From IMG/VR virus record IMGVR_UViG_3300045825_000032, positions 1 through 53,134 of that record: a DNA stretch of 53,134 nt; one strand, given 5' to 3'. Below are positions 5,187 through 44,864 of the stretch, one piece after another. The stretch is from a virus. Made by a program: the position numbers and the translations under genes. Below the pieces are notes generated by a model. That model did no database searches, had not been told where the DNA came from, and was given only the letters and a program-made list of their open reading frames with translations. How positions within the stretch are numbered: position 1 is the stretch's first letter; the number at the start of each line of letters is the position of its first letter.

Positions 5187-5328
5187 ATGTCGCTAGTTTA
5201 TACAAACCGATGTTAGAGACTGCATAACCTAAGAAAGTGATTCCCATTGCTAGGTTACCCCTCCAAGATTGTTCAATTCCAATACACAGGTAGATGAGTC
5301 CTACGAAGGCAATAAGCCATCCACTCAT
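5185..5328 (-). CDS. Small two-helix membrane protein
   Basis: 47 aa (begins MSGWLIAFVGLIYLCIG) with two hydrophobic segments, about residues 3-17 and 28-42. Its ATG overlaps the stop of the upstream HslV-like gene (ATGA), and it is the last gene of the leftward operon; its stop codon lies in the T-tract of the terminator. No family recognised; it could be an accessory lysis or membrane-modifying peptide. Confidence 0.6.
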   Translation of the reverse strand: MSGWLIAFVGLIYLCIGIEQSWRGNLAMGITFLGYAVSNIGLYKLAT

Positions 5329-5780
5329 TTAATCTTATAGGTCTTTACACCCATACCTGTATAAGTGTCCTTCTTACTAGCAATCTTAATGGCTTCCGTG
5401 GGGGTGGCTCCTGCCATCATAGCCCCCATAGCAATACCCTGACCACTACCAATAGCTCCAAAAGGTTCATTTACTTTAAGCCACTTATCATAGCTGTCAA
5501 AGGTAAAGATTTCCCCTTCTTCAGTTAGTACCAAACCAATAAGTCCTTTTACTTTTGGTGGTTTATCAAATTGATGGGGCCTACTAAAGAATTCTGCTGT
5601 TACAATAATGTCTTGGGCAGTCCCAGCAAACCCCACATAGAAGTCACAGTGCGGATAGGTATCCTTATGCTTCTCGAATTTGTAGACTTTAGGGGAGCCT
5701 TTAAATTTACTGGCATTATTCATATCAGTATATTGAAGGTCCCCTGCAATCTCCTGTTTGTTACAAGCAATAGTAGTCAT
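5325..5780 (-). CDS. HslV-like Ntn hydrolase (proteasome-fold peptidase)
   Basis: 151 aa when started at the ATG at 5780, which overlaps the stop of the reductase gene (TAATG). It begins MTTIACNKQEIAGD, matching the HslV/proteasome beta-subunit start in which Met is removed and the new N-terminal Thr is the nucleophile, followed by a G-D pair. Later segments fit the fold: YVGFAGTAQD, the glycine-rich GSGQGIAMGAMMAG and PTEAIKIASKKD. It is slightly shorter than HslV (about 175 aa). No HslU/ClpX-like ATPase is encoded in the window, so it would need a host unfoldase or work on small substrates. Family assignment is from motif recognition. Confidence 0.75.
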   Translation of the reverse strand: MTTIACNKQEIAGDLQYTDMNNASKFKGSPKVYKFEKHKDTYPHCDFYVGFAGTAQDIIVTAEFFSRPHQFDKPPKVKGLIGLVLTEEGEIFTFDSYDKWLKVNEPFGAIGSGQGIAMGAMMAGATPTEAIKIASKKDTYTGMGVKTYKIK

Positions 5781-9687: not shown

Positions 9688-10123
9688 TTATTTGTTTTAA
9701 TAGATTAAAAAAGTGTTCTGCGTTTACAATGGCTAAGGGTTCCTTGTAGTCCATCTTAACAATGACCAGTGGCTCATATTTACCATGAGTCTTAGCCTGC
9801 TCATAGTATGTGTGAATTTGGCTCGTCGCCTTGTTCTTACATTCGATTTGGTAAGGAACCAGTTTCCGTGCCGCTGGGCTAAGTTGTACGTCCTCACCAG
9901 AGGCACCCATCGAGGTTGATTTAACGTCGTCTGGTTCCAGTTTAGTAAAGGCTGTAAGAATTGCATCACGTACCCATTTCTGTAGTATCCGTCCTTTTGC
10001 TTTTGCACTTTGTGGTTTCAAATAATCTCCATATTCCCCTGTGTCTTCATTATACCAACCTCCCTCTATTTTTGGGATAGCGTCCCATGGGCTTAATTGT
10101 CCGAGAAGTCTGGAAATTGCCAT
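9665..10123 (-). CDS. PD-(D/E)XK nuclease, possible resolvase
   Basis: 152 aa. The catalytic core is visible: E77-D78 in SGEDVQLSPAARK followed by E94-C-K96 (YQIECKN), the D...ExK arrangement of PD-(D/E)XK nucleases. Located directly after the 5'-3' exonuclease in the replication operon, it could resolve branched intermediates like T7 endonuclease I, or degrade host DNA. Fold call is good; the biological substrate is inferred. Confidence 0.75.
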   Translation of the reverse strand: MAISRLLGQLSPWDAIPKIEGGWYNEDTGEYGDYLKPQSAKAKGRILQKWVRDAILTAFTKLEPDDVKSTSMGASGEDVQLSPAARKLVPYQIECKNKATSQIHTYYEQAKTHGKYEPLVIVKMDYKEPLAIVNAEHFFNLLKQINENSSKD

Positions 10124-10812
10124 ATGTCATTTTCCTTGTGGAAGATATATAAGCATTGACCATTCATAAGCATTTCTTCATCATTAGAATAAGCATCACG
10201 AACAGCTTCAAACATTTCCTGCTCTGTAGTCAGGCCGTCCAAGATTCGAGTTGCTTTGACTTTACCAATTCCAGAAACACCCTTGAGGCCATCTGTTGCA
10301 TCTCCGATAAGGAGTTGGTAGTAGAAAAATCTAAGTCCATCTTCGGCTGTGACACTAGCAAACTCTGCTGGTTTTGTCCAACGATTTTTACCCACAACGC
10401 CCCCTGATATTTCCCAACTGTAATGATTACCGGGGATTTGCCGAAGGTCTTTGTCCAAAGAGCAAATAACTGTGTTACGAATATCCCCACATTGGCTAAT
10501 TCCAAGAAGGTCATCTGCTTCACATCCGTCAGAACGTACCGCGTTATATTGTTGCTCAAGATAGTCTTTACATTGTGTAAGGTACTGAGGTCGGTCCATA
10601 GTAAGCCGATTGGCTTTATACTCTGGAAAGACTTGATACCTAAAATTATTCTCTCCTGAGAGAGCTACATACATTTCGCTGGCATGTGTGGCTAATAGAA
10701 TATCATCTATCAAACGCTCCATATAATAACGAGCGATTTCAAAGGTTTCTAGATTAGCAGCAGCGGCACACCTGTATGCAATAATATCCCCATCTATTAG
10801 GGCTTTAATCAT
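10093..10812 (-). CDS. 5'-3' exonuclease / flap endonuclease (FEN family)
   Basis: 239 aa. The metal-binding acidic residues of the PIN/FEN fold are seen at the N-terminus (ALIDGD, D7 and D9), in CEADDLLG (about 97-104) and in SLDKDLRQ. A helix-3-turn-helix DNA-binding motif follows (GDATDGLKGVSGIGKVKA, about 169-186). It would remove RNA primers or resect ends during phage replication, as T7 gene 6 does. It overlaps the nuclease gene downstream and a small membrane protein upstream. Confidence 0.88.
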   Translation of the reverse strand: MIKALIDGDIIAYRCAAAANLETFEIARYYMERLIDDILLATHASEMYVALSGENNFRYQVFPEYKANRLTMDRPQYLTQCKDYLEQQYNAVRSDGCEADDLLGISQCGDIRNTVICSLDKDLRQIPGNHYSWEISGGVVGKNRWTKPAEFASVTAEDGLRFFYYQLLIGDATDGLKGVSGIGKVKATRILDGLTTEQEMFEAVRDAYSNDEEMLMNGQCLYIFHKENDIWQFPDFSDN

Positions 10813-11065
10813 AACTTATAACGGACCCCCTTGACCTATGTGGGTACTCTCGGTACTCCATAAAACATCGGTAAACTCCATTCTTTTTAGCTATCCATGC
10901 TTCTTGTTTTACTGTATCCCTACAGTTTTCATGCCATTCCATGTGTTCATTAACATCCTTGGTGAGAGCAACCCCCATCCAAAATCCGGCTGTTCCAAAG
11001 GAAGCAGAACAAAGGATAAGGGTTAGTATATACAAGAAGTCCTGAACCTTACTCTTTAGGCTCAA
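10805..11065 (-). CDS. Small single-pass membrane protein, unknown
   Basis: 86 aa with one strong hydrophobic helix (about residues 11-35, FLYILTLILCSASFGTAGFW) and a charged C-terminal domain containing two Cys. It lies between the SSB and exonuclease genes, overlapping both. Function unknown. Confidence 0.6.
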   Translation of the reverse strand: MSLKSKVQDFLYILTLILCSASFGTAGFWMGVALTKDVNEHMEWHENCRDTVKQEAWIAKKNGVYRCFMEYREYPHRSRGSVISYD

Positions 11066-11516
11066 GTACCCAGTCCGTGAACTGTTGAGCTACCTCGATT
11101 ACAGTATTAACATCAAGATGCTCAATGTCAGACCGCAATTTAATGTACTCGATAGCATTACTGATACTGGACTGTTTAATGATATACACTTGTTTACGAG
11201 CACGTTCTTCTGGAGTCTCATAGTTACTACCAGTGACTCGTGTAGTGCCTGTAGTTGAGGCAGGAGCACCTGTAGGAGCACTACCATCACTAATAGAGGC
11301 CCATTCATTGTAACCTTGGGCATTCTTGGTCAACTGAACGTCAACTTCTTGTCCTGCCAAAGTTTGTACTTGTTTATAGATGCTAGGATTAGCAAAATCC
11401 ATAATGTTCTGAGTACGGGGTTCACCATTATAGGTGTAAGCTACAATAGCTTTATTGTAACCCTTTGTACCTTTTTTAACGAACTCGTTATTAACACTGT
11501 TAATTGTAATTTTCAA
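11049..11516 (-). CDS. Probable single-stranded DNA-binding protein
   Basis: 155 aa. The N-terminal 80 residues are beta-rich in a way consistent with an OB fold. A Ser/Thr/Gly-rich linker follows, then a helical tail with YETPEERARKQVYIIKQSSIS, a pattern I associate with a family of phage SSB-like proteins. The tail ends acidic (VLEPKE), as in SSBs that recruit partners. Its place between DNA polymerase and exonuclease supports the role. An exact TTAACACTGTTAA palindrome lies in codons 5-9, and a consensus promoter lies 160 bp upstream inside the polymerase gene. Confidence 0.65.
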   Translation of the reverse strand: MKITINSVNNEFVKKGTKGYNKAIVAYTYNGEPRTQNIMDFANPSIYKQVQTLAGQEVDVQLTKNAQGYNEWASISDGSAPTGAPASTTGTTRVTGSNYETPEERARKQVYIIKQSSISNAIEYIKLRSDIEHLDVNTVIEVAQQFTDWVLEPKE

Positions 11517-12247
11517 AGTTTAATTTCCTTCATTTCTAGTTTGTTCATCCCATACTGCACTTCGCAGGACAGGGGTAGTTTAAATTCATAGTCGAAGACT
11601 TGTTTACATAGTTTTGGTACATCTTCGATTGCTTGTTTTAAAAGCATACTAATATTATACACGTTTTTCTCTGGTGTGTCAAGTACTATCGAGTCATGGA
11701 TGGTAGAAATCATTAGAGCTTCCATACCAGACTCACGTAGTAGCTTTCTAGCTTGTAAACGTGCAAGCATAACCAAGTCTGCACCGAATCCCTGAACTGG
11801 ATAGTTTTTAATAATTGTCAGGGGCCACGGCTCAGTCTTGTTGTAGTCAGGGGTTATGGGATAGTGTCTCCCACTTGGGATAGTAAGCTTCCCTTCTTTT
11901 TGGGCGGTACGGAGGAGTTCTCCGTGCCATCGCTGGATTCCTTTATATTTAGAGTAATACTCGTCAATAATGCCTTGCCAGAACTGGACAGACTTAGATA
12001 CGTCTTGAAAGTCTGCATCGTTTGCATAAGAGTATGCGCTTCCACCGTAGATAAGTCTGAACTTAAAGATTTTAGCAATAAGTCTTCCTTGTTTCCCTTC
12101 ACCGAGTTTAAATCTATCACGATTTGCTTCATGTATATCTACCTTGTCAATAATTTCTTGGCACAGAACTTCATCCCCGGATAGCTCTGCGGCTACAACG
12201 ACCTCTAGCCCTTTTACGTCAGCGTTAATTAGTATTATTGTACTCCT
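11513..12247 (-). CDS. Family A DNA polymerase, C-terminal (palm/fingers) part in a separate frame
   Basis: Open from the TAG at 12248-12250 to the stop at 11513. It carries polymerase motif A (INADVKGLEVVVAA, catalytic Asp), motif B/O-helix (R-x3-K-x3-F-x3-YGG) and motif C (TIHDSIVLDTP). There is no ATG, GTG or TTG in frame before motif B or indeed before 11776, so translation must come from a non-standard start, a frameshift or splicing. AGGAG (12247-12243) is followed by ATA codons at 12238 and 12235. The matching N-terminal part lies at 12406-13590, and a 62-codon ORF sits between them. Together they make about 635 aa, a normal PolA-type phage polymerase length. Confidence 0.85.
   Translation of the reverse strand, partial: RSTIILINADVKGLEVVVAAELSGDEVLCQEIIDKVDIHEANRDRFKLGEGKQGRLIAKIFKFRLIYGGSAYSYANDADFQDVSKSVQFWQGIIDEYYSKYKGIQRWHGELLRTAQKEGKLTIPSGRHYPITPDYNKTEPWPLTIIKNYPVQGFGADLVMLARLQARKLLRESGMEALMISTIHDSIVLDTPEKNVYNISMLLKQAIEDVPKLCKQVFDYEFKLPLSCEVQYGMNKLEMKEIKL
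11654..11682 (-). promoter_or_regulatory. Leftward sigma70 promoter inside the polymerase C-terminal part
   Basis: On the minus strand TTGACA (11682-11677), 17 bp, then TATAAT (11659-11654): a full consensus match. It is preceded by AGTAC, as in the promoters at 14996-15024 and 29258-29286. It would feed the SSB, exonuclease and downstream genes. It lies within codons for the motif C region of the polymerase. Confidence 0.75.
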
Positions 12248-12413
12248 CTATAAAACATTCTGCTTCCGCATCTGAATCATTTTCTTGAAGAATATATAAT
12301 TCCATTATCCAAAGTTTATTTATAGTATCAAGATATTTCTCTGCCGGGTTAGCTTTATACCATTCTATATCTTGAAATTCTTTTTTCCATCTAAATGAAA
12401 CAAATTTAGTCAT
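12225..12413 (-). CDS. 62-codon ORF splitting the DNA polymerase
   Basis: The ORF (MTKFVSFRWKKEFQDIEW..., 62 aa) starts in an ATGA overlap with the stop of the polymerase N-terminal part, and its last codons contain the AGGAG that precedes the C-terminal part. It has no resemblance to polymerase and no recognised domain; it is acidic toward its end. Its frame differs from both flanking polymerase frames. It may be an inserted small gene that split the polymerase, or part of an intervening sequence. Confidence 0.5.
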   Translation of the reverse strand: MTKFVSFRWKKEFQDIEWYKANPAEKYLDTINKLWIMELYILQENDSDAEAECFIEEYNNTN

Positions 12414-13590
12414 ATCTTGAGATTAAAAGTTGGTCAACTTGATTTCCAAAGTTCTGCATATTGGGATTACTACTGGATAATCGACCAGTTCTAGCCACTA
12501 CCTGATTATACTGTCCATGTAGAAACTCACCCCATCCCATCTTGTCTAGGAGTTCAGGAAGCTTCCCAAAATAAGTATCCATCAGTTTAGCTAACTCTGC
12601 TCGTTCCAATAGCAACTCAATAATCCGTCTATGTTCCTTTGTGGGTTTCTTTAATTGTTTTAGTACCCCTTCATTAGTTTCATAGATAGTAATTTCCTGA
12701 ATACTTCCGTCTGGTAAAGCCAGCTTCTTTTTAAGTTTTGTTTCAGTTTTAGGGAGAGGTCTGAACCTCCACCCACATTCATAGATAACAATGTTATGTC
12801 GAACCCGTGTATAAACTTCTCCCTTACGTGGGCCGCTTTTGTAGACTGTCTCTTCTTCTGTGGGTTCATCAATATCTATTTTCCCGCCATATAACAGACA
12901 GCTAAGATGTTGACCGCTGTCGAGATTAATAGCAGGAGTAGGGGAATGCGTGAGAAGCTCCTCTGTAATCGTCTGTAATTTCTTTGCCGTTTCGTTAGCT
13001 TTAACATTACATAACTCCTTATCAAATTTAATTCCATTCCATTCAATCTCTGCAAGAACCAACAAATCTAATCCCATAATCAGACAGAGTTTCTTCTGTT
13101 TCTCTGTCATTACCTCTTGCTGTTTGAGATAGAGTTTGTAGGTAAGGTCTACATCGAGGTCATTGTAGAACTGCAATTCAGTTACAGGAATGTCTGGAGT
13201 ATCTATCCCAAGGGACCAATACTCGGCAATTTTATCATCTTTGGAACCTAGTTCATACTTCGCAAGGCACTCATTAAGACTAGGATAAGTGCTCGTTTGA
13301 CCGGAGATAATGAACTCCGCCAGTTGGCAATCCCAGATGCGAGTTTTATCAGGTGGTACTATCCCATGCCTGCGAACCCATGTCAGGTCAAATTTAAGAT
13401 TAAATCCTACTACCAGACTTGCTGACTGCATTTCGAGACGTAGCTCATGCAGGAAGTCCGGGGCATCATAATAGTTAAATGATGGTGGATTATCATCTAT
13501 CTTCACTGAATAGGACACCAACTTGTTACTCGCCGTAAACGGGTGTCCTTTCAGATGTGTGGTTGTCTCTACGTCAAATGTTAATACAAT
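12406..13590 (-). CDS. Family A DNA polymerase, N-terminal (3'-5' exonuclease/thumb) part, ATT start
   Basis: 394 aa from ATT at 13590. Exonuclease motifs: FDVETT (Exo I), VGFNLKFD (Exo II) and YNDLDVD (Exo III); thumb and TGRLSSSNPNMQN follow, and the frame ends just before motif A. Exo I lies upstream of the first TTG/GTG (13521), so those starts would delete a catalytic motif. Between the in-frame TGA at 13605 and Exo I there is no ATG, GTG or TTG. A perfect AGGAGGT (13603-13597) stands 6 nt before ATT at 13590. AUU is a known rare start (infC, pcnB in E. coli) that limits expression, so autoregulated synthesis is possible. Confidence 0.88.
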   Translation of the reverse strand: MVLTFDVETTTHLKGHPFTASNKLVSYSVKIDDNPPSFNYYDAPDFLHELRLEMQSASLVVGFNLKFDLTWVRRHGIVPPDKTRIWDCQLAEFIISGQTSTYPSLNECLAKYELGSKDDKIAEYWSLGIDTPDIPVTELQFYNDLDVDLTYKLYLKQQEVMTEKQKKLCLIMGLDLLVLAEIEWNGIKFDKELCNVKANETAKKLQTITEELLTHSPTPAINLDSGQHLSCLLYGGKIDIDEPTEEETVYKSGPRKGEVYTRVRHNIVIYECGWRFRPLPKTETKLKKKLALPDGSIQEITIYETNEGVLKQLKKPTKEHRRIIELLLERAELAKLMDTYFGKLPELLDKMGWGEFLHGQYNQVVARTGRLSSSNPNMQNFGNQVDQLLISRYD

Positions 13591-13601
13591 ATTAAAACCT
13601 C

Positions 13602-13700
13602 CTATTCACTTTTAATAAGTTTACATTTTCTGCATTGGTATCTATTCATACCATAACCAGCAGACCCAACATATTCCCAATCATGTTTGCATTCAATCAT
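13602..13700 (-). CDS. Mini zinc-ribbon protein
   Basis: 32 aa (MIECKHDWEYVGSAGYGMNRYQCRKCKLIKSE) is too short for most gene callers but has C4-x-H6 and C-x-x-C (QCRKC), a complete set of zinc ligands. It overlaps the helicase stop by 8 bp, and its own stop (TAG) is fused to the AGGAGG that serves the polymerase. That coupling argues it is translated. Function unknown. Confidence 0.65.
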   Translation of the reverse strand: MIECKHDWEYVGSAGYGMNRYQCRKCKLIKSE

Positions 13701-14946
13701 AATTTTCAATGTCCTTAAAACGTGCAATCTCCGGTTCAATCAACACTTGCATACGAGCATGGCGCATATGAGGGATAGTATCTTCATCTCCTAACAATTT
13801 GTTCTTTGAAATGTTAAGGTAGCGAATATACTCTGCACCCTCTGCATGGGTATTACCCATACCTAGAATCCAATCTGCCTCTGCTTGTTTACTGGTCTTT
13901 GCATTAGCTACGTTATCCATAGTAAGCCACTTCTGGCCCTCCGCAGTACCGTCAGCCTGACATACACCAATAACCGGACAATATCGTTTAGCTAGTTCCC
14001 TAGCCCAGATATAGATTGCTCCTAGCCGTAGGTCTTCCCGGTCAGCATCAAAGCCCTTAATCTTGTCAATCTGGTCAAAGACAACAAGACTAGGGTTTAG
14101 TTGCTTACAAATAGCTTCGACTTTGGACCGACCTATTAACGCGTCGTCAACAAGCCGGAATGAATCAGTTGGAAATCCATGTTTGTACCTTTCAGTTGAA
14201 CCCAACAATTGTTCAAGTCGTACTCCGTGGAACCCTTGATGTACACGAAGCATGACCTCAGCACCAACCTGCTCGTTGTTGAACCATATAATCGGGCCAC
14301 GAGTATCAGGTAAATGTTGAAGCATATATGAAACTTCCGATGCAAGGAAAGTAGTTTTTCCTGACTCTGGTCTTGCGAAAAGAAATCCGAAGTTTCCTTT
14401 TCTAAGGCTTCCAAGGCTTTTGTTAAGGCAATCAAGTCTCCATCTAAGTCCTTTATCCTGATATACTTCGTGTAGAAGCTTCTCCAAATCCCCCGAAACA
14501 AACTCGAAATCTTCCGTCGTTTCTGGATTGTCATTGTTTAATTCCTCCAATAGTTCATTAACAGGTGTTAATTCCCCGGACCCAGTACTGAACTTAAAGG
14601 CTGCCTCAGACAGTTTTAAAGCCGTTTTACGGCGTTTAATCTGCTTAAGGATACCTACCCCTAGGGTGGGGTCTATTTGTGTCTCTGAGAGCGTTTTAAA
14701 TAGCTCCAGATAGATTCCTTTATCCACATCAGGGTATGCTGTGAAGAAAGCAGCCTGTAGGTCGTCTAAACTGAAGTCCTGTATGTAATCCCTATGCAGG
14801 GATTGTAACACCTTGTAAACATAATATAGTTCTTTATACTCATCCCTGATATGTTGCAGGTCAATAGAGTCAAAGTAGCTATCGTAGAACTCCCGTCTTA
14901 GTAGGAGTGTGATTAAGTCCCGTTCAGGGACGTATATAGTATTCAT
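13693..14946 (-). CDS. Replicative DNA helicase, DnaB/RecA-like
   Basis: 417 aa. Walker A is ARPESGKTT (residues 191-199) and Walker B is LVVFDQID (about 285-292); a later QADGT and the conserved N-A-K-T-S-K-Q-A-E-A-D segment fit the DnaB-family core, which unwinds the fork 5' to 3' as a ring. The N-terminal 150 residues are helical, as in DnaB/T7 gp4-type proteins, but carry no primase; the primase is a separate gene at 16105. It is the first gene behind the promoter at 14996-15024. Confidence 0.85.
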   Translation of the reverse strand: MNTIYVPERDLITLLLRREFYDSYFDSIDLQHIRDEYKELYYVYKVLQSLHRDYIQDFSLDDLQAAFFTAYPDVDKGIYLELFKTLSETQIDPTLGVGILKQIKRRKTALKLSEAAFKFSTGSGELTPVNELLEELNNDNPETTEDFEFVSGDLEKLLHEVYQDKGLRWRLDCLNKSLGSLRKGNFGFLFARPESGKTTFLASEVSYMLQHLPDTRGPIIWFNNEQVGAEVMLRVHQGFHGVRLEQLLGSTERYKHGFPTDSFRLVDDALIGRSKVEAICKQLNPSLVVFDQIDKIKGFDADREDLRLGAIYIWARELAKRYCPVIGVCQADGTAEGQKWLTMDNVANAKTSKQAEADWILGMGNTHAEGAEYIRYLNISKNKLLGDEDTIPHMRHARMQVLIEPEIARFKDIENYD

Positions 14947-17261: not shown

Positions 17262-17463
17262 TATCTTCTCCTTCCTCTACATCACTAAAATCTTCCATGT
17301 CAATCGCTTCTGTAGCTTCCAAGTCTTCCCGTGTAACTACAGGAATATCAGAGGATACATCACGGAAGCATCGGTTACACAAATCAATGAATTCTCCAGT
17401 GACTCCATGTTTGCGGGTACTTTCAAAATCATTAAGGTTTTTATCACAAGCAACACAGCGCAT
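17254..17463 (-). CDS. Zinc-ribbon protein with acidic tail
   Basis: 69 aa. Two CxxC knuckles (CVACDKNLNDFESTRK and CNRCF) define a zinc ribbon of a type common in phages; the last 25 residues are almost all acidic or small. Its start overlaps the stop of the ATP-grasp gene by one base. It may be an adaptor or a target for the modification enzymes next to it; this is speculation. Confidence 0.65.
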   Translation of the reverse strand: MRCVACDKNLNDFESTRKHGVTGEFIDLCNRCFRDVSSDIPVVTREDLEATEAIDMEDFSDVEEGEDNE

Positions 17464-18167
17464 TATACAAGTCCTTTAATAATAGCATTAGCATAACTAT
17501 CCAGAGTCTCTCCCATCAGCCCCGGATTAGCATTAACCTCAAGCAGAATCAATCTATCTTGCTGCTTGTTATAAATAATATCCACAGCACCAAGAGGGTA
17601 ATCCAGCGCTTTAACTGCTTTGAGGGCCAAGTCCCGTAGTCCGTTAGGCTCTTGAATGTCTCCACGGCAAAAAATATAACCATTAGCAAGATTGCGAATC
17701 CGAGTATCCCGTGTATCATCGAAACTCCTTTTCTTTCGTTTCTCTTGAACATCAATCACAGTCCCATTCAGGATATGCACCCGATACTCAAACTTCTTCT
17801 TAGTATATTTCGTGTACAAGGGAGCATTCACCAACTCTTCCCGAGTCTTAGCAAATACAATTCCCTTTCCCTCACTAGACCGAAGTAGAGTACGACAGAC
17901 AACCTGAACTTCTTCTCCAAGCCAAGTAAGAGCAGTCTCGCGGCTATCCGTCCATTCCGGAATCGGTAGCCCCGCCACAGCAAACTTACGGAATTGTGTA
18001 AGCTTATCTGTCCCCCTAAACAATTGGAAAGCTTTACGCCCTCGTACTCGTTCAGGAGATACACGCCAAACCTTGTAACCCAGCTTGGCACTCATAGTTT
18101 CCGCTAGTTCTTTAGCGGCACGTGACCCCATATTATTGGGGACTAATACAATTTTCTTAGTGGACAA
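17463..18167 (-). CDS. RimK-like ATP-grasp ligase
   Basis: 234 aa. ATP-grasp features are a Lys/Arg-rich nucleotide-binding middle (EGKGIVFAKT, EYRVHIL) and the metal-binding C-terminal GAVDIIYN ... LILLEVNANPGL. The fold uses ATP to join a carboxylate to an amine through an acyl-phosphate. It overlaps the class II glutamine amidotransferase by 11 bp. The same set is known from phiEco32-like phages and was proposed to make or attach peptide-like tags. The substrate is unknown. Confidence 0.82.
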   Translation of the reverse strand: MSTKKIVLVPNNMGSRAAKELAETMSAKLGYKVWRVSPERVRGRKAFQLFRGTDKLTQFRKFAVAGLPIPEWTDSRETALTWLGEEVQVVCRTLLRSSEGKGIVFAKTREELVNAPLYTKYTKKKFEYRVHILNGTVIDVQEKRKKRSFDDTRDTRIRNLANGYIFCRGDIQEPNGLRDLALKAVKALDYPLGAVDIIYNKQQDRLILLEVNANPGLMGETLDSYANAIIKGLV

Positions 18168-19497
18168 CTAAAACTCCTTTATTAGCGTTAGGACCGACCG
18201 GTGTTTCTAGGTCTTGTTGTGAGAGGGTAATTGCAGATGTTGAACAAAGAACAAAGCCACTGGGTTCTGTGCCCTTCCATGTTGAAGGCCACATATTCTT
18301 TTGCCATGATTTGTTTTTAACAACACAATCAAATATACACCCAGTAGTAGCATACTCAATACACTCCTCCTCTTTAATTTTATCAGGGGCATATCTATGA
18401 CGAAGAACAACAGAAGGTTCATCTAGTGCCATAAGCCAAAGAAACATTCCATCCTTATCATCCACACCATTAATACAGGTAGCATCATAGGCATATGCCT
18501 CTACTGAGCAATCAGCAGGGATAACAGAGGTAATCTTTTCCCATTCAGTAACTGTACAATGTACCGCTTGTTTAGCACATTCCAGCATTTCTGTGGAGGT
18601 AAGAGCATTATCCCCAAATCCAACTACTAGGTTCATTGCTCTGTCTGCACAAGCATCCCGCCCTACATATCCTCCACGGGGACTATCATTCTGGTATGGG
18701 TGTCTATTCCACTTCCGTTCCTCATAGTCTTCCAAATCATATCCACAAGCATCAGGATAATATCCTGTAGTAATAGGAGCTACATATTTTGGTTTGATTT
18801 CAATTTTTGTATTAGTAACTCTCCATGATTTATCTACCAACTTATAGGAGCATTGAAGAAGCTCTGCTAGTTGAAAGGGTTTCTGTTTCCATACTAGATT
18901 CATCCGGTCCCCTACAAAATTCAACATAGCCAACTCAGAGGACCAAATCCATTCAGTATCTGTAGTCCCTACCCATAGAGGGCGTTGAGAATTCCGTAAG
19001 AAATTCACAGTTTCCTCCTCAAAGTTATACCAAATCAAGGCAAAGGCTCCATTAATAGTGTTAATGGCTACCTCTACCCCCTCTTTAGCAATCAAGTGGG
19101 CTATGGCATGACTATCCACATCAACATCAGCGTGTTGTTTATGGTCCCCCCATAGTGTACCATTATGGACAAGACAAATCTTATCATCCACTAGGAAAGG
19201 ATGGGCATTCTCATCAATGATATTACCCTTAGTGGCCTTTCGATTATGCCCAATGAGAGCACTACCATTAAGAATAGATAGCCGCATCAACTCATCATAA
19301 TCCTTATGACTCATGAACTCTTGTGCAGTACTTGCCTCCTTACTCAACCGAAGGGACCCATCGTTGGATACCAAGAAACTACCAGTGGAATCATCCCCCC
19401 TAAGGGTATCAACAAACAAAAGGGTTGAAAAGATTTCCTTCTGTCGTTGGGTAAATCCATTGGTATATTTACTAATAACTCCTACAAGTCCACACAT
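18157..19497 (-). CDS. Class II glutamine amidotransferase (Ntn fold)
   Basis: 446 aa. It begins MCGLVGVIS, so Cys2 becomes the N-terminal nucleophile that releases ammonia from glutamine; the expected RGDDSTG, GHNRKATKG, VHNGTLWG and DVDSHAIAH motifs follow in order. The C-terminal half (about residues 230-446) is not a known synthetase such as GlmS or AsnB and has no obvious acceptor domain. Ammonia or a glutamyl group could be passed to the neighbouring ATP-grasp or amidoligase enzymes. A near-copy of the palindrome (19052) lies in frame. Confidence 0.85.
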   Translation of the reverse strand: MCGLVGVISKYTNGFTQRQKEIFSTLLFVDTLRGDDSTGSFLVSNDGSLRLSKEASTAQEFMSHKDYDELMRLSILNGSALIGHNRKATKGNIIDENAHPFLVDDKICLVHNGTLWGDHKQHADVDVDSHAIAHLIAKEGVEVAINTINGAFALIWYNFEEETVNFLRNSQRPLWVGTTDTEWIWSSELAMLNFVGDRMNLVWKQKPFQLAELLQCSYKLVDKSWRVTNTKIEIKPKYVAPITTGYYPDACGYDLEDYEERKWNRHPYQNDSPRGGYVGRDACADRAMNLVVGFGDNALTSTEMLECAKQAVHCTVTEWEKITSVIPADCSVEAYAYDATCINGVDDKDGMFLWLMALDEPSVVLRHRYAPDKIKEEECIEYATTGCIFDCVVKNKSWQKNMWPSTWKGTEPSGFVLCSTSAITLSQQDLETPVGPNANKGVLVVH

Positions 19498-43210: not shown

Positions 43211-44334
43211 GTACAACTACTTTTGTAAATAATGTAACACCAATTCTAGCTGATTGGCTTAATGACGTAAACTCTGCTGTTTACGGGAACGCTACTTGGA
43301 CTTTCACTGGTATTAATATTAGTGGAAACCTTGCGTTTACAGGTACTGGAAACCGCATCACCGGAGACTTCTCTAATGCGACATTAGCTAATCGGGTGGC
43401 ATTCAAATCCAGTACAGTAAATGGAAATTCTATTTTAGGTATTATTCCAAACGGGACTTCACAAGTTACTGGTTTTGATGCTTTTAATTCTGCTGACCCT
43501 GATAACAGTGGACGAGCTAGATTTAACATTTCAGCACTCGCTGTAACCCTTGAATCAACGGTAACTGGTACAGGAACGAACCTACCTCTGCTAGTGAATG
43601 TTGGCGGCAGCGAGAGGATGCGGATTGATACCAGTGGGAATGTTGGGATTAGTGGAAACCTTGCGTTTACAGGTACTGGAAACCGCATCACCGGAGACTT
43701 CTCTAATGCGACATTAGCTAATCGGGCGATGTTCCAGACGAGTACGGTTAATGGCGGTACAACAGTTGCTGCTATTCCAAATGGTGCTGGAACTATTGCT
43801 GGCTATATGGTGTCGGCAACGGCAGATACGGCAAACTCCTCACAGCTTTATATAAACACCGATAACTCCGCGTTTTATTTTAACTCCACCAAGTTCGGAA
43901 CTGGCACCTTCCTCCCCATGGCGTTCTACACGAGCGGCAGCGAGAGGATGCAGATTGATACCAGTGGGAATGTCCTGCTGAAATCTGCTACTGGTGGACT
44001 CGGCTACGGCACAGGAGCAGGAGGCTCAGTCACTCAGGCTACGAGTAAATCTACTGCGGTTGCTCTGAATACACCTACTGGTCAGATAACGATGAATAAC
44101 GCTGCTTTGGCGGCGGCTACTTCTGTTTCTTTCACCTTGAACAACACCGTTATCGGAGCAAACGACCTGATTCTTGTGCATCGAGTTTCTGGTGGCTCTG
44201 CTGGTGCTTACATAGCTACGGGCGATGGCGTTGGCGTAGGTTCTTGCTCAATCACTGTTCGGAACAATTCGGGCGGCTCTTTGTCAGAGGCGATTGTTCT
44301 GGGCTTTGCAATCATCAAAGGCTCAATAACATGA
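43207..44334 (+). CDS. Tail fiber protein with a 110-residue tandem duplication
   Basis: 375 aa. It starts with an adaptor segment (STTTFVNNVTPILADWLNDVN) also used, in altered form, by the fiber at 44867. Two 110-aa modules follow, then a C-terminal domain (GGSVTQATSKST ... LSEAIVLGFAIIKGSIT) seen in many phage fiber proteins. The second module and C-terminus are more G+C-rich. Probably part of a receptor-binding fiber. Confidence 0.7.
   Translation: MSTTTFVNNVTPILADWLNDVNSAVYGNATWTFTGINISGNLAFTGTGNRITGDFSNATLANRVAFKSSTVNGNSILGIIPNGTSQVTGFDAFNSADPDNSGRARFNISALAVTLESTVTGTGTNLPLLVNVGGSERMRIDTSGNVGISGNLAFTGTGNRITGDFSNATLANRAMFQTSTVNGGTTVAAIPNGAGTIAGYMVSATADTANSSQLYINTDNSAFYFNSTKFGTGTFLPMAFYTSGSERMQIDTSGNVLLKSATGGLGYGTGAGGSVTQATSKSTAVALNTPTGQITMNNAALAAATSVSFTLNNTVIGANDLILVHRVSGGSAGAYIATGDGVGVGSCSITVRNNSGGSLSEAIVLGFAIIKGSIT
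43318..43977 (+). repeat. 330-bp tandem duplication inside the fiber gene
   Basis: 43318-43396 is identical to 43648-43726 (79 bp), and GGCAGCGAGAGGATGC at 43605 recurs at 43935 in a near-identical block, both at a distance of exactly 330 bp. The interior of the modules has diverged. This indicates duplication with later exchange or conversion of the ends. Confidence 0.92.
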
Positions 44335-44864
44335 ACGTAATAGCAACCCTTCTGCTATTTATCCCGCTAGAAGTAGCGGGGCTGGTCATGTCGCTAGTGG
44401 CGATGGTGTTTTGCTGGCTGATTGCTTTGTTCGTTGACAAAGATGGAAACCTGCCAAAGTACCTGCGCTGGTTTCAAACTCCAGATGCTACTTGTTTTGA
44501 TGAAATGTGGGTAGCCGAACACCCTACTTGGAGCAAGTACAAAATAGCTCTTACTTGGATAGCCCGCAATCCCGCCTATGGATTCAGGAAATGGGTTGGG
44601 ATAAAGGTTTCACCGATTGCAAAGACCTACGGAGATATTGAGATTGGTGATGGGGAACTAGGTAAAGCAGGATGGTTTTTGCTTATTGATGAACAGGGAT
44701 TCTGGAATTACACCTACGTCATTGATCTAAAAAACAAAAGCTGTATGCGCGGCACTTTAGGCTGGAACCTTATTCCTATTGCCAAAGGTTACGACAGTGT
44801 TAATTCGGGAATGCTGGAAACAGACTTCCTGAGGTTTTATTCTTTCGGTGTAACTGGACACTAA
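44331..44864 (+). CDS. Membrane-anchored protein (DUF7338-like)
   Basis: 177 aa from the ATG at 44331 (ATGA overlap). Residues 3-33 form a long or double transmembrane segment; a soluble domain with WIARNPAYGFRKW and GWFLLIDEQGFWNYT follows, recalling a family of phage fiber-region proteins. It lies among fiber genes, an odd place for a membrane protein. It could modify the cell surface against superinfection. Confidence 0.55.
   Translation: MNVIATLLLFIPLEVAGLVMSLVAMVFCWLIALFVDKDGNLPKYLRWFQTPDATCFDEMWVAEHPTWSKYKIALTWIARNPAYGFRKWVGIKVSPIAKTYGDIEIGDGELGKAGWFLLIDEQGFWNYTYVIDLKNKSCMRGTLGWNLIPIAKGYDSVNSGMLETDFLRFYSFGVTGH

Follow-up and report, generated by a model that had tools for sequence, protein, structure and literature searches.

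Both halves of the split DNA polymerase of an uncultured phage appear to start at near-cognate codons, AUU and AUA, each behind a strong Shine-Dalgarno sequence. The phage is represented by a virus contig of 53134 bases (the whole stretch analysed, hereafter the window), and its lineage seems to have swapped AUG repeatedly, and in place, for AUU, AUC, AUA or CUG in genes of the replication module. The favoured reading, to which a probability of about three in four is given, is that the AUU and AUA starts are real and that the lineage tunes the yield of its replication proteins by combining a weak start codon with a strong Shine-Dalgarno sequence. Relationships were viewed by polymerase similarity (37% to phage MEP402) and by a polymerase tree only. 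Close DNA similarity to named phages was limited to one 45-bp match in the helicase, and no relatives were found in bacterial genomes.

The replication genes considered here are encoded on the minus strand of the window. The first polymerase gene, polN (12406-13590, 394 codons), comprises the 3'-5' exonuclease and the initial portion of the family A polymerase domain (Pfam DNA_pol_A, 6.5e-18; PHROG 9556, 3e-54); its match to DNA_pol_A_exo1 (E = 0.00054) lies under the gathering score of that model. It ends at 12406, just ahead of polymerase motif A, and the remainder is encoded by a second, differently framed ORF, polC (11513-12235; Pfam DNA_pol_A, 2e-29), which provides the palm/fingers half from motif A (NADVKGLE) to the end. 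Between them, and overlapping both, lies a 62-codon ORF (12225-12413) that matched no Pfam or PHROG family. A 32-codon zinc-ribbon-like mini-gene (13602-13700; MIECKHDWEYVGSAGYGMNRYQCRKCKLIKSE) with weak PHROG matches of unknown function (best 0.0014) is situated between polN and the DnaB-like helicase (13693-14946; PHROG 19, 2.5e-43). The helicase, the 5'-3' exonuclease (10093-10812; Pfam, 2.6e-12) and an HslV-family peptidase (5325-5780; PHROG 1040, 1.3e-26) all have ATG starts in the window. Unrelated small genes occupy the helicase/polN/polC junctions in the window and its relatives, marking these as insertion hot spots. Elsewhere, a single tRNA-Trp (CCA; 29557-29631, plus strand) is found close to where the genes change strand, and the minus-strand ORFs 18157-19497 and 17463-18167 form a pair of which one is glutamine amidotransferase-like (by eye) and its neighbour ATP-grasp-like; MEP402 also has a glutamine amidotransferase annotated near its replication genes.

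A division of the polymerase before motif A is familiar from Zobellviridae-type phages. MEP402 and phage QDWS535 each have the polymerase annotated as two CDS, and of the 171 loci where both halves are present, 125 have them unfused. The split is better explained by two genes translated separately than by an intron, because the halves lie only some 7 nt apart in many relatives and a search of Rfam at E up to 1 matched neither an intron nor any other RNA in positions 11000-14500 of the window.

On the minus strand the polN frame reads TGA (13605-13603) ATA GGA GGT TTT AAT ATT (13590-13588) GTA TTA ACA TTT GAC GTA GAG, and between the upstream stop and the conserved N-terminus it contains no ATG, GTG or TTG. 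A preliminary description of this DNA had claimed just such an absence upstream of the exonuclease motif, together with a perfect AGGAGGT 6 nt ahead of ATT; both are seen directly in the sequence, the Shine-Dalgarno at 13603-13597 having a duplex energy of -10.9 kcal/mol. Relatives lend good support to its proposal of ATT as the start codon: their alignments to polN commence at this codon, and the comparison of start regions that it recommended places AUU or AUC in the same column in three other phages. The mRNA around the start has no special predicted fold (z = -0.13).

Among 168 distinct polN loci, ATG is present between the stop and the motif in 138, only GTG or TTG in 26 and none of these in four; in L089, one of the 26, the only candidate is a distant TTG and the real start appears to be ATT. 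The locus/contig pairs used below are L002/G001, L003/G002, L004/G003, L005=L006/G004, L007/G005, L011/G006 and L101/G008, with W for the window. Within the closest clade of seven phages, four polN starts are AUU or AUC (ATT in the window, L002/G001 and L011/G006, ATT or ATC in L007/G005) and three are ATG (L003/G002, L004/G003 and L005=L006/G004). The four AUU/AUC starts each have their own Shine-Dalgarno (-10.9, -7.7, -5.6 and -9.5 kcal/mol), whereas at the three with ATG, which lie across the helicase stop or almost touch it, such a site is faint or absent (-0.4, +0.4 and -3.1 kcal/mol). Two arrangements thus alternate: in one, ATG follows the helicase and lacks a site of its own; in the other, an inserted gene is followed by a strong site and AUU/AUC. 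The polymerase tree, some nodes of which are weakly supported, intersperses AUU with ATG members.

The start of polC follows the same pattern. No ATG, GTG or TTG occurs between TAG (12250-12248) and motif A, and the putative AUA start (12233-12235), aligned with ATG in 13 relatives, stands 7 nt behind the Shine-Dalgarno core AGGAG (12243-12247; -8.6 kcal/mol). The window sequence ATA CTA ATT AAC GCT GAC aligns with ATG CTA ATT AAT of L003, and ATC CCA CTT GTA of L002/G001 with ATG CCA CTG GTT of L005; the start codon of L004/G003 is ATC. Both polN and polC therefore have an AUN codon in the column where homologues have AUG, with a Shine-Dalgarno at normal spacing, and AUU and AUA are well supported by these alignments as their respective start codons. 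The preliminary description was sound as to the polN start, but the split of the polymerase and the ATA start of polC had escaped it. The 171 polC loci divide into 103 with ATG, 11 with only GTG or TTG, 46 fused to the first half and 11 with none, and in three of the last group (window, L002 and L004) a near-cognate codon is accompanied by a Shine-Dalgarno. The remainder include seven that are unplaceable or seem to be frameshifted close to motif A. In G008, the contig of L101, the polC start column is occupied by TCG (13097, plus strand) behind AAGGAGT; as this codon is neither canonical nor near-cognate, a missing AUG does not always signify a weak start.

The clearest case of a near-cognate start is the HslV-like peptidase. 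Mature HslV starts with its catalytic threonine, which is exposed by removal of Met. The 14 HslV-like loci comprise eight with ATG, four with ATA and two with ATT, and in every one Thr-Thr follows directly after the start; if the enzyme works like HslV, initiation must therefore be at that codon. The ATT or ATA of G005 and G010 comes directly after a stop codon. The G003 gene, with a TTG a few codons upstream, is less clean. A profile search from four closer proteins yielded five loci.

The wider occurrence of such starts was surveyed in the stop-to-stop ORFs of 28 contigs, the clade being the window plus 18 relatives and the outside group nine others. Near-cognate starts (AUU, AUC, AUA, CUG) were accepted for 24 of 497 testable clade genes versus 1 of 195 outside (Fisher p = 0.005). 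The clade count, curated by hand, derives from 32 genes without a canonical start despite conservation extending upstream of the first canonical codon, of which 22 were kept, and from two genes hidden by a distant TTG and added by hand (G006 polN and G003 HslV-like). The ten dropped were the unplaceable G010 helicase, G008 polC (TCG), a G010 polC fragment, two G017 fragments, G007 14847, the shadow frame G007 13943, G002 2542 and two small other-strand ORFs, G011 28224 and G007 44151. Outside the clade two of three were dropped as frameshifts (polC of G019 and of W01), the one kept being the AUA-started helicase of MW202697. Unsure genes (nine in the clade, three outside) were entered as tested but not as near-cognate. 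The 24 clade cases are without exception on the polymerase (replication-gene) strand (24/360 versus 0/137 on the other strand, p = 0.0006), a test that depends on dropping three other-strand ORFs, one a shadow frame and two small ORFs. Small conserved other-strand ORFs without a start codon were observed at G011 28225-28446 (+) and G007 44152-44433 (+), and are perhaps products of programmed frameshifting.

The families affected are polN, polC, the DnaB-like helicase (AUC or AUA in some relatives), the 5'-3' exonuclease (AUU in G007), a RusA-like resolvase, the HslV-like peptidase, a small zinc protein and a small ORF. Together with the MW202697 helicase, the 24 clade genes use ATA 12 times, ATT seven, ATC three, ATT or ATC once and CTG twice. 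The window itself contributes two near-cognate genes, polN and polC, among 35 tested. A special case confined to the polymerase was also considered and rejected: a strict Shine-Dalgarno scan of the early strand of the window found AUN starts at polN and polC and otherwise just one ATT, within another gene, but a wider scan found other genes in relatives. The earlier suggestion of an unusual control point is accordingly not borne out as a peculiarity of one polymerase gene, since further genes of the lineage share the feature.

Shine-Dalgarno pairing is stronger at the near-cognate starts (median -7.7 kcal/mol, 25 rows) than at 344 ATG starts (median -5.3; p = 3.5e-7) or at random places (median -1.7; p = 5e-15). 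The 25 rows represent the 24 genes with G005 polN entered at both candidate codons, the MW202697 helicase included and the G003 HslV-like gene left out. For the helicases of G007, G008, G011, G013 and W01 the Shine-Dalgarno itself helped to place the start, a bias towards this result; the 19 starts for which homology was the sole guide share the median, -7.7 kcal/mol.

How might such starts operate? The start positions, their recurrence, the Shine-Dalgarno strength and the restriction to the replication strand emerge from comparing the sequences, and upon these a mechanism can be proposed. The initiator tRNA would read the polN AUU as fMet behind its perfect Shine-Dalgarno, and the polC AUA likewise. 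The strong Shine-Dalgarno would recruit the 30S subunit, while the weak codon would slow the step after binding and expose it to proofreading by IF3, the outcome being a low, tuned yield of replication proteins. The initiator tRNA is described as pairing with the first two positions of AUN, in complexes that IF3 destabilises (PMC5472188, PMC2268962), and S. aureus genes with AUU or AUA starts are described as giving about 10% of the AUG yield in poor medium (PMC13009471). IF3 overexpression is described as impairing the propagation of M13 (PMC2268962), and so phage growth can be IF3-sensitive. For these reasons we infer that the lineage keeps its replication proteins low by means of a weak codon preceded by a strong Shine-Dalgarno, with fMet initiation, dependence on IF3 and benefit to the phage as presumed parts of the arrangement.

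The main rival is tolerance of weak starts in low-yield genes. Near-cognates may simply be tolerated in this lineage or its hosts, drifting in and out without regulation while a stronger Shine-Dalgarno compensates, and this has an appreciable, though smaller, chance of being correct. In at least six gene families sister phages differ in starting with AUG or AUN, and near-neutral drift with Shine-Dalgarno compensation may therefore be at work; the stronger pairing at AUN starts is likewise in its favour. Pure tolerance would not lead one to expect the lack of any near-cognate start on the other strand after curation, except if selection for yield acts more strongly on late genes. A bolder version of the favoured reading, that the AUU/AUC/AUA starts shared by the polymerase halves, helicase, exonuclease, resolvase and peptidase form an early-gene regulon through which replication tracks the host supply of IF3 and the fidelity of start-codon choice, is unlikely, and the same must be said of a phage factor that would loosen start selection after infection. 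None of 14 phage records searched contained an IF3 gene, and no altered initiator tRNA was found in the window or in 13 relative pieces, the tRNA-Met of L253 having a normal CAT anticodon.

Far less probable is that splicing, ribosomal bypass or frameshift connects the polymerase frame with an ATG further upstream, from which inserts would have parted it. The gene upstream of polN is something other than the helicase in all four AUU/AUC phages, versus none of the three with ATG, which overlap or almost touch the helicase stop (p = 0.03, with shared ancestry not corrected and the upstream gene of L007 visible only as far as the contig end). Moreover, PMC10580990 describes the family A polymerase of the Methylophilales phages MEP401/402 as two ORFs with a small ORF between, and proposes a possible intron; in this analysis both polymerase halves of MEP402 have ATG, whereas those of the window have AUU and AUA. 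Against joining, the inserts (a mini-gene, several small ORFs or, by eye, a phosphoesterase-like gene) are unrelated between phages, lie in other frames and match no Rfam intron; the first two points also leave the fusion to the upstream mini-gene, raised in the preliminary description, unsupported. A Shine-Dalgarno at the usual distance precedes every one of these starts, and in HslV-like genes the codon changes in the same way directly behind a stop codon.

Loss of ATG through sequencing or assembly error, likewise raised before, is more improbable still. The contigs are metagenomic save a few, and polC is frameshifted in some of them, but a sequencing slip is unlikely at polN since four phages from different samples carry AUU/AUC at the same start column. 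Accepted replacements are AUN and CUG only, with AAG, ACG and AGG found 0 times, and a strong Shine-Dalgarno is present at each. A different genetic code was considered and rejected, internal AUA, AUU and AUC codons of the window aligning with Ile. Apparent frameshifts of 1-4 bases, in both directions, occur directly after the motif A aspartate of polC in eight contigs (L089, L099, L020, L076, L044, L047, L147 and L084) from about six lineages. They may represent programmed frameshifting, a mutation hot spot or an assembly artefact; they imply that something further occurs in polC, and this counts against the favoured reading.

Least probable of all is translation of an exonuclease-deficient protein from TTG 13521, the earliest in-frame ATG, GTG or TTG of polN and the choice of a gene finder with three start codons: it lies 23 codons downstream of the ATT, past the FDVETT motif, with no Shine-Dalgarno seen before it, and the residues TFDVE and KG.PFTAS upstream of it are invariant in seven relatives, where differences in codons 2-23 fall mainly at third positions (193, versus 95 at position 1 and 71 at position 2), indicating constraint at the protein level. 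Codons 17-21 within this region (13528-13542, minus strand; CCGTTTACGGCGAGT / CCGTTYACGGCGAGT) are identical in seven close relatives except for one wobble T/C. CCG, ACG and GCG are rare codons in close relatives, yet are present in this stretch, which looks like an element conserved at the nucleic-acid level.

Near-cognate starts in bacteria are known from a handful of genes. In the literature covered, which took in few subscription papers, we recognised no report of phage polymerases with an AUU start or of near-cognate starts in large number within one phage lineage. If the favoured reading is true, a lineage using such starts in both polymerase halves and nearby replication genes offers a natural experiment on start selection and IF3. 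There is also a practical consequence, as gene finders limited to ATG, GTG and TTG truncate or miss near-cognate-start proteins: the helicase of MW202697 (GenBank) is annotated from 1949, 42 codons downstream of its likely AUA at 1823.

Several known systems bear comparison. Gene 26 of phage T4 has an internal AUU start that gives a shorter product, whereas the AUU in the window would be the main start of the polymerase. E. coli infC (PMC5472188) and pcnB are described as having AUU starts with a Shine-Dalgarno that are yield-limiting and IF3-sensitive. These are single host genes, in contrast to the lineage of the window, where the starts occur in the two parts of a single phage enzyme and across several replication genes, with an effect of IF3 presumed. 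In Streptomyces, the GUC start of sigR is described as repressed by IF3, keeping the protein low (PMC5472188); sigR differs in encoding a host sigma factor and in using a GUC codon. Also comparable are S. aureus cvfC1 (AUU), ccpN and infC (both AUA), with conserved starts and extended Shine-Dalgarno sequences, ccpN being described as reaching up to 30% of the AUG yield in rich medium (PMC13009471). The S. aureus genes are chromosomal and their yield was measured, whereas in the phage lineage a reduced yield is proposed.
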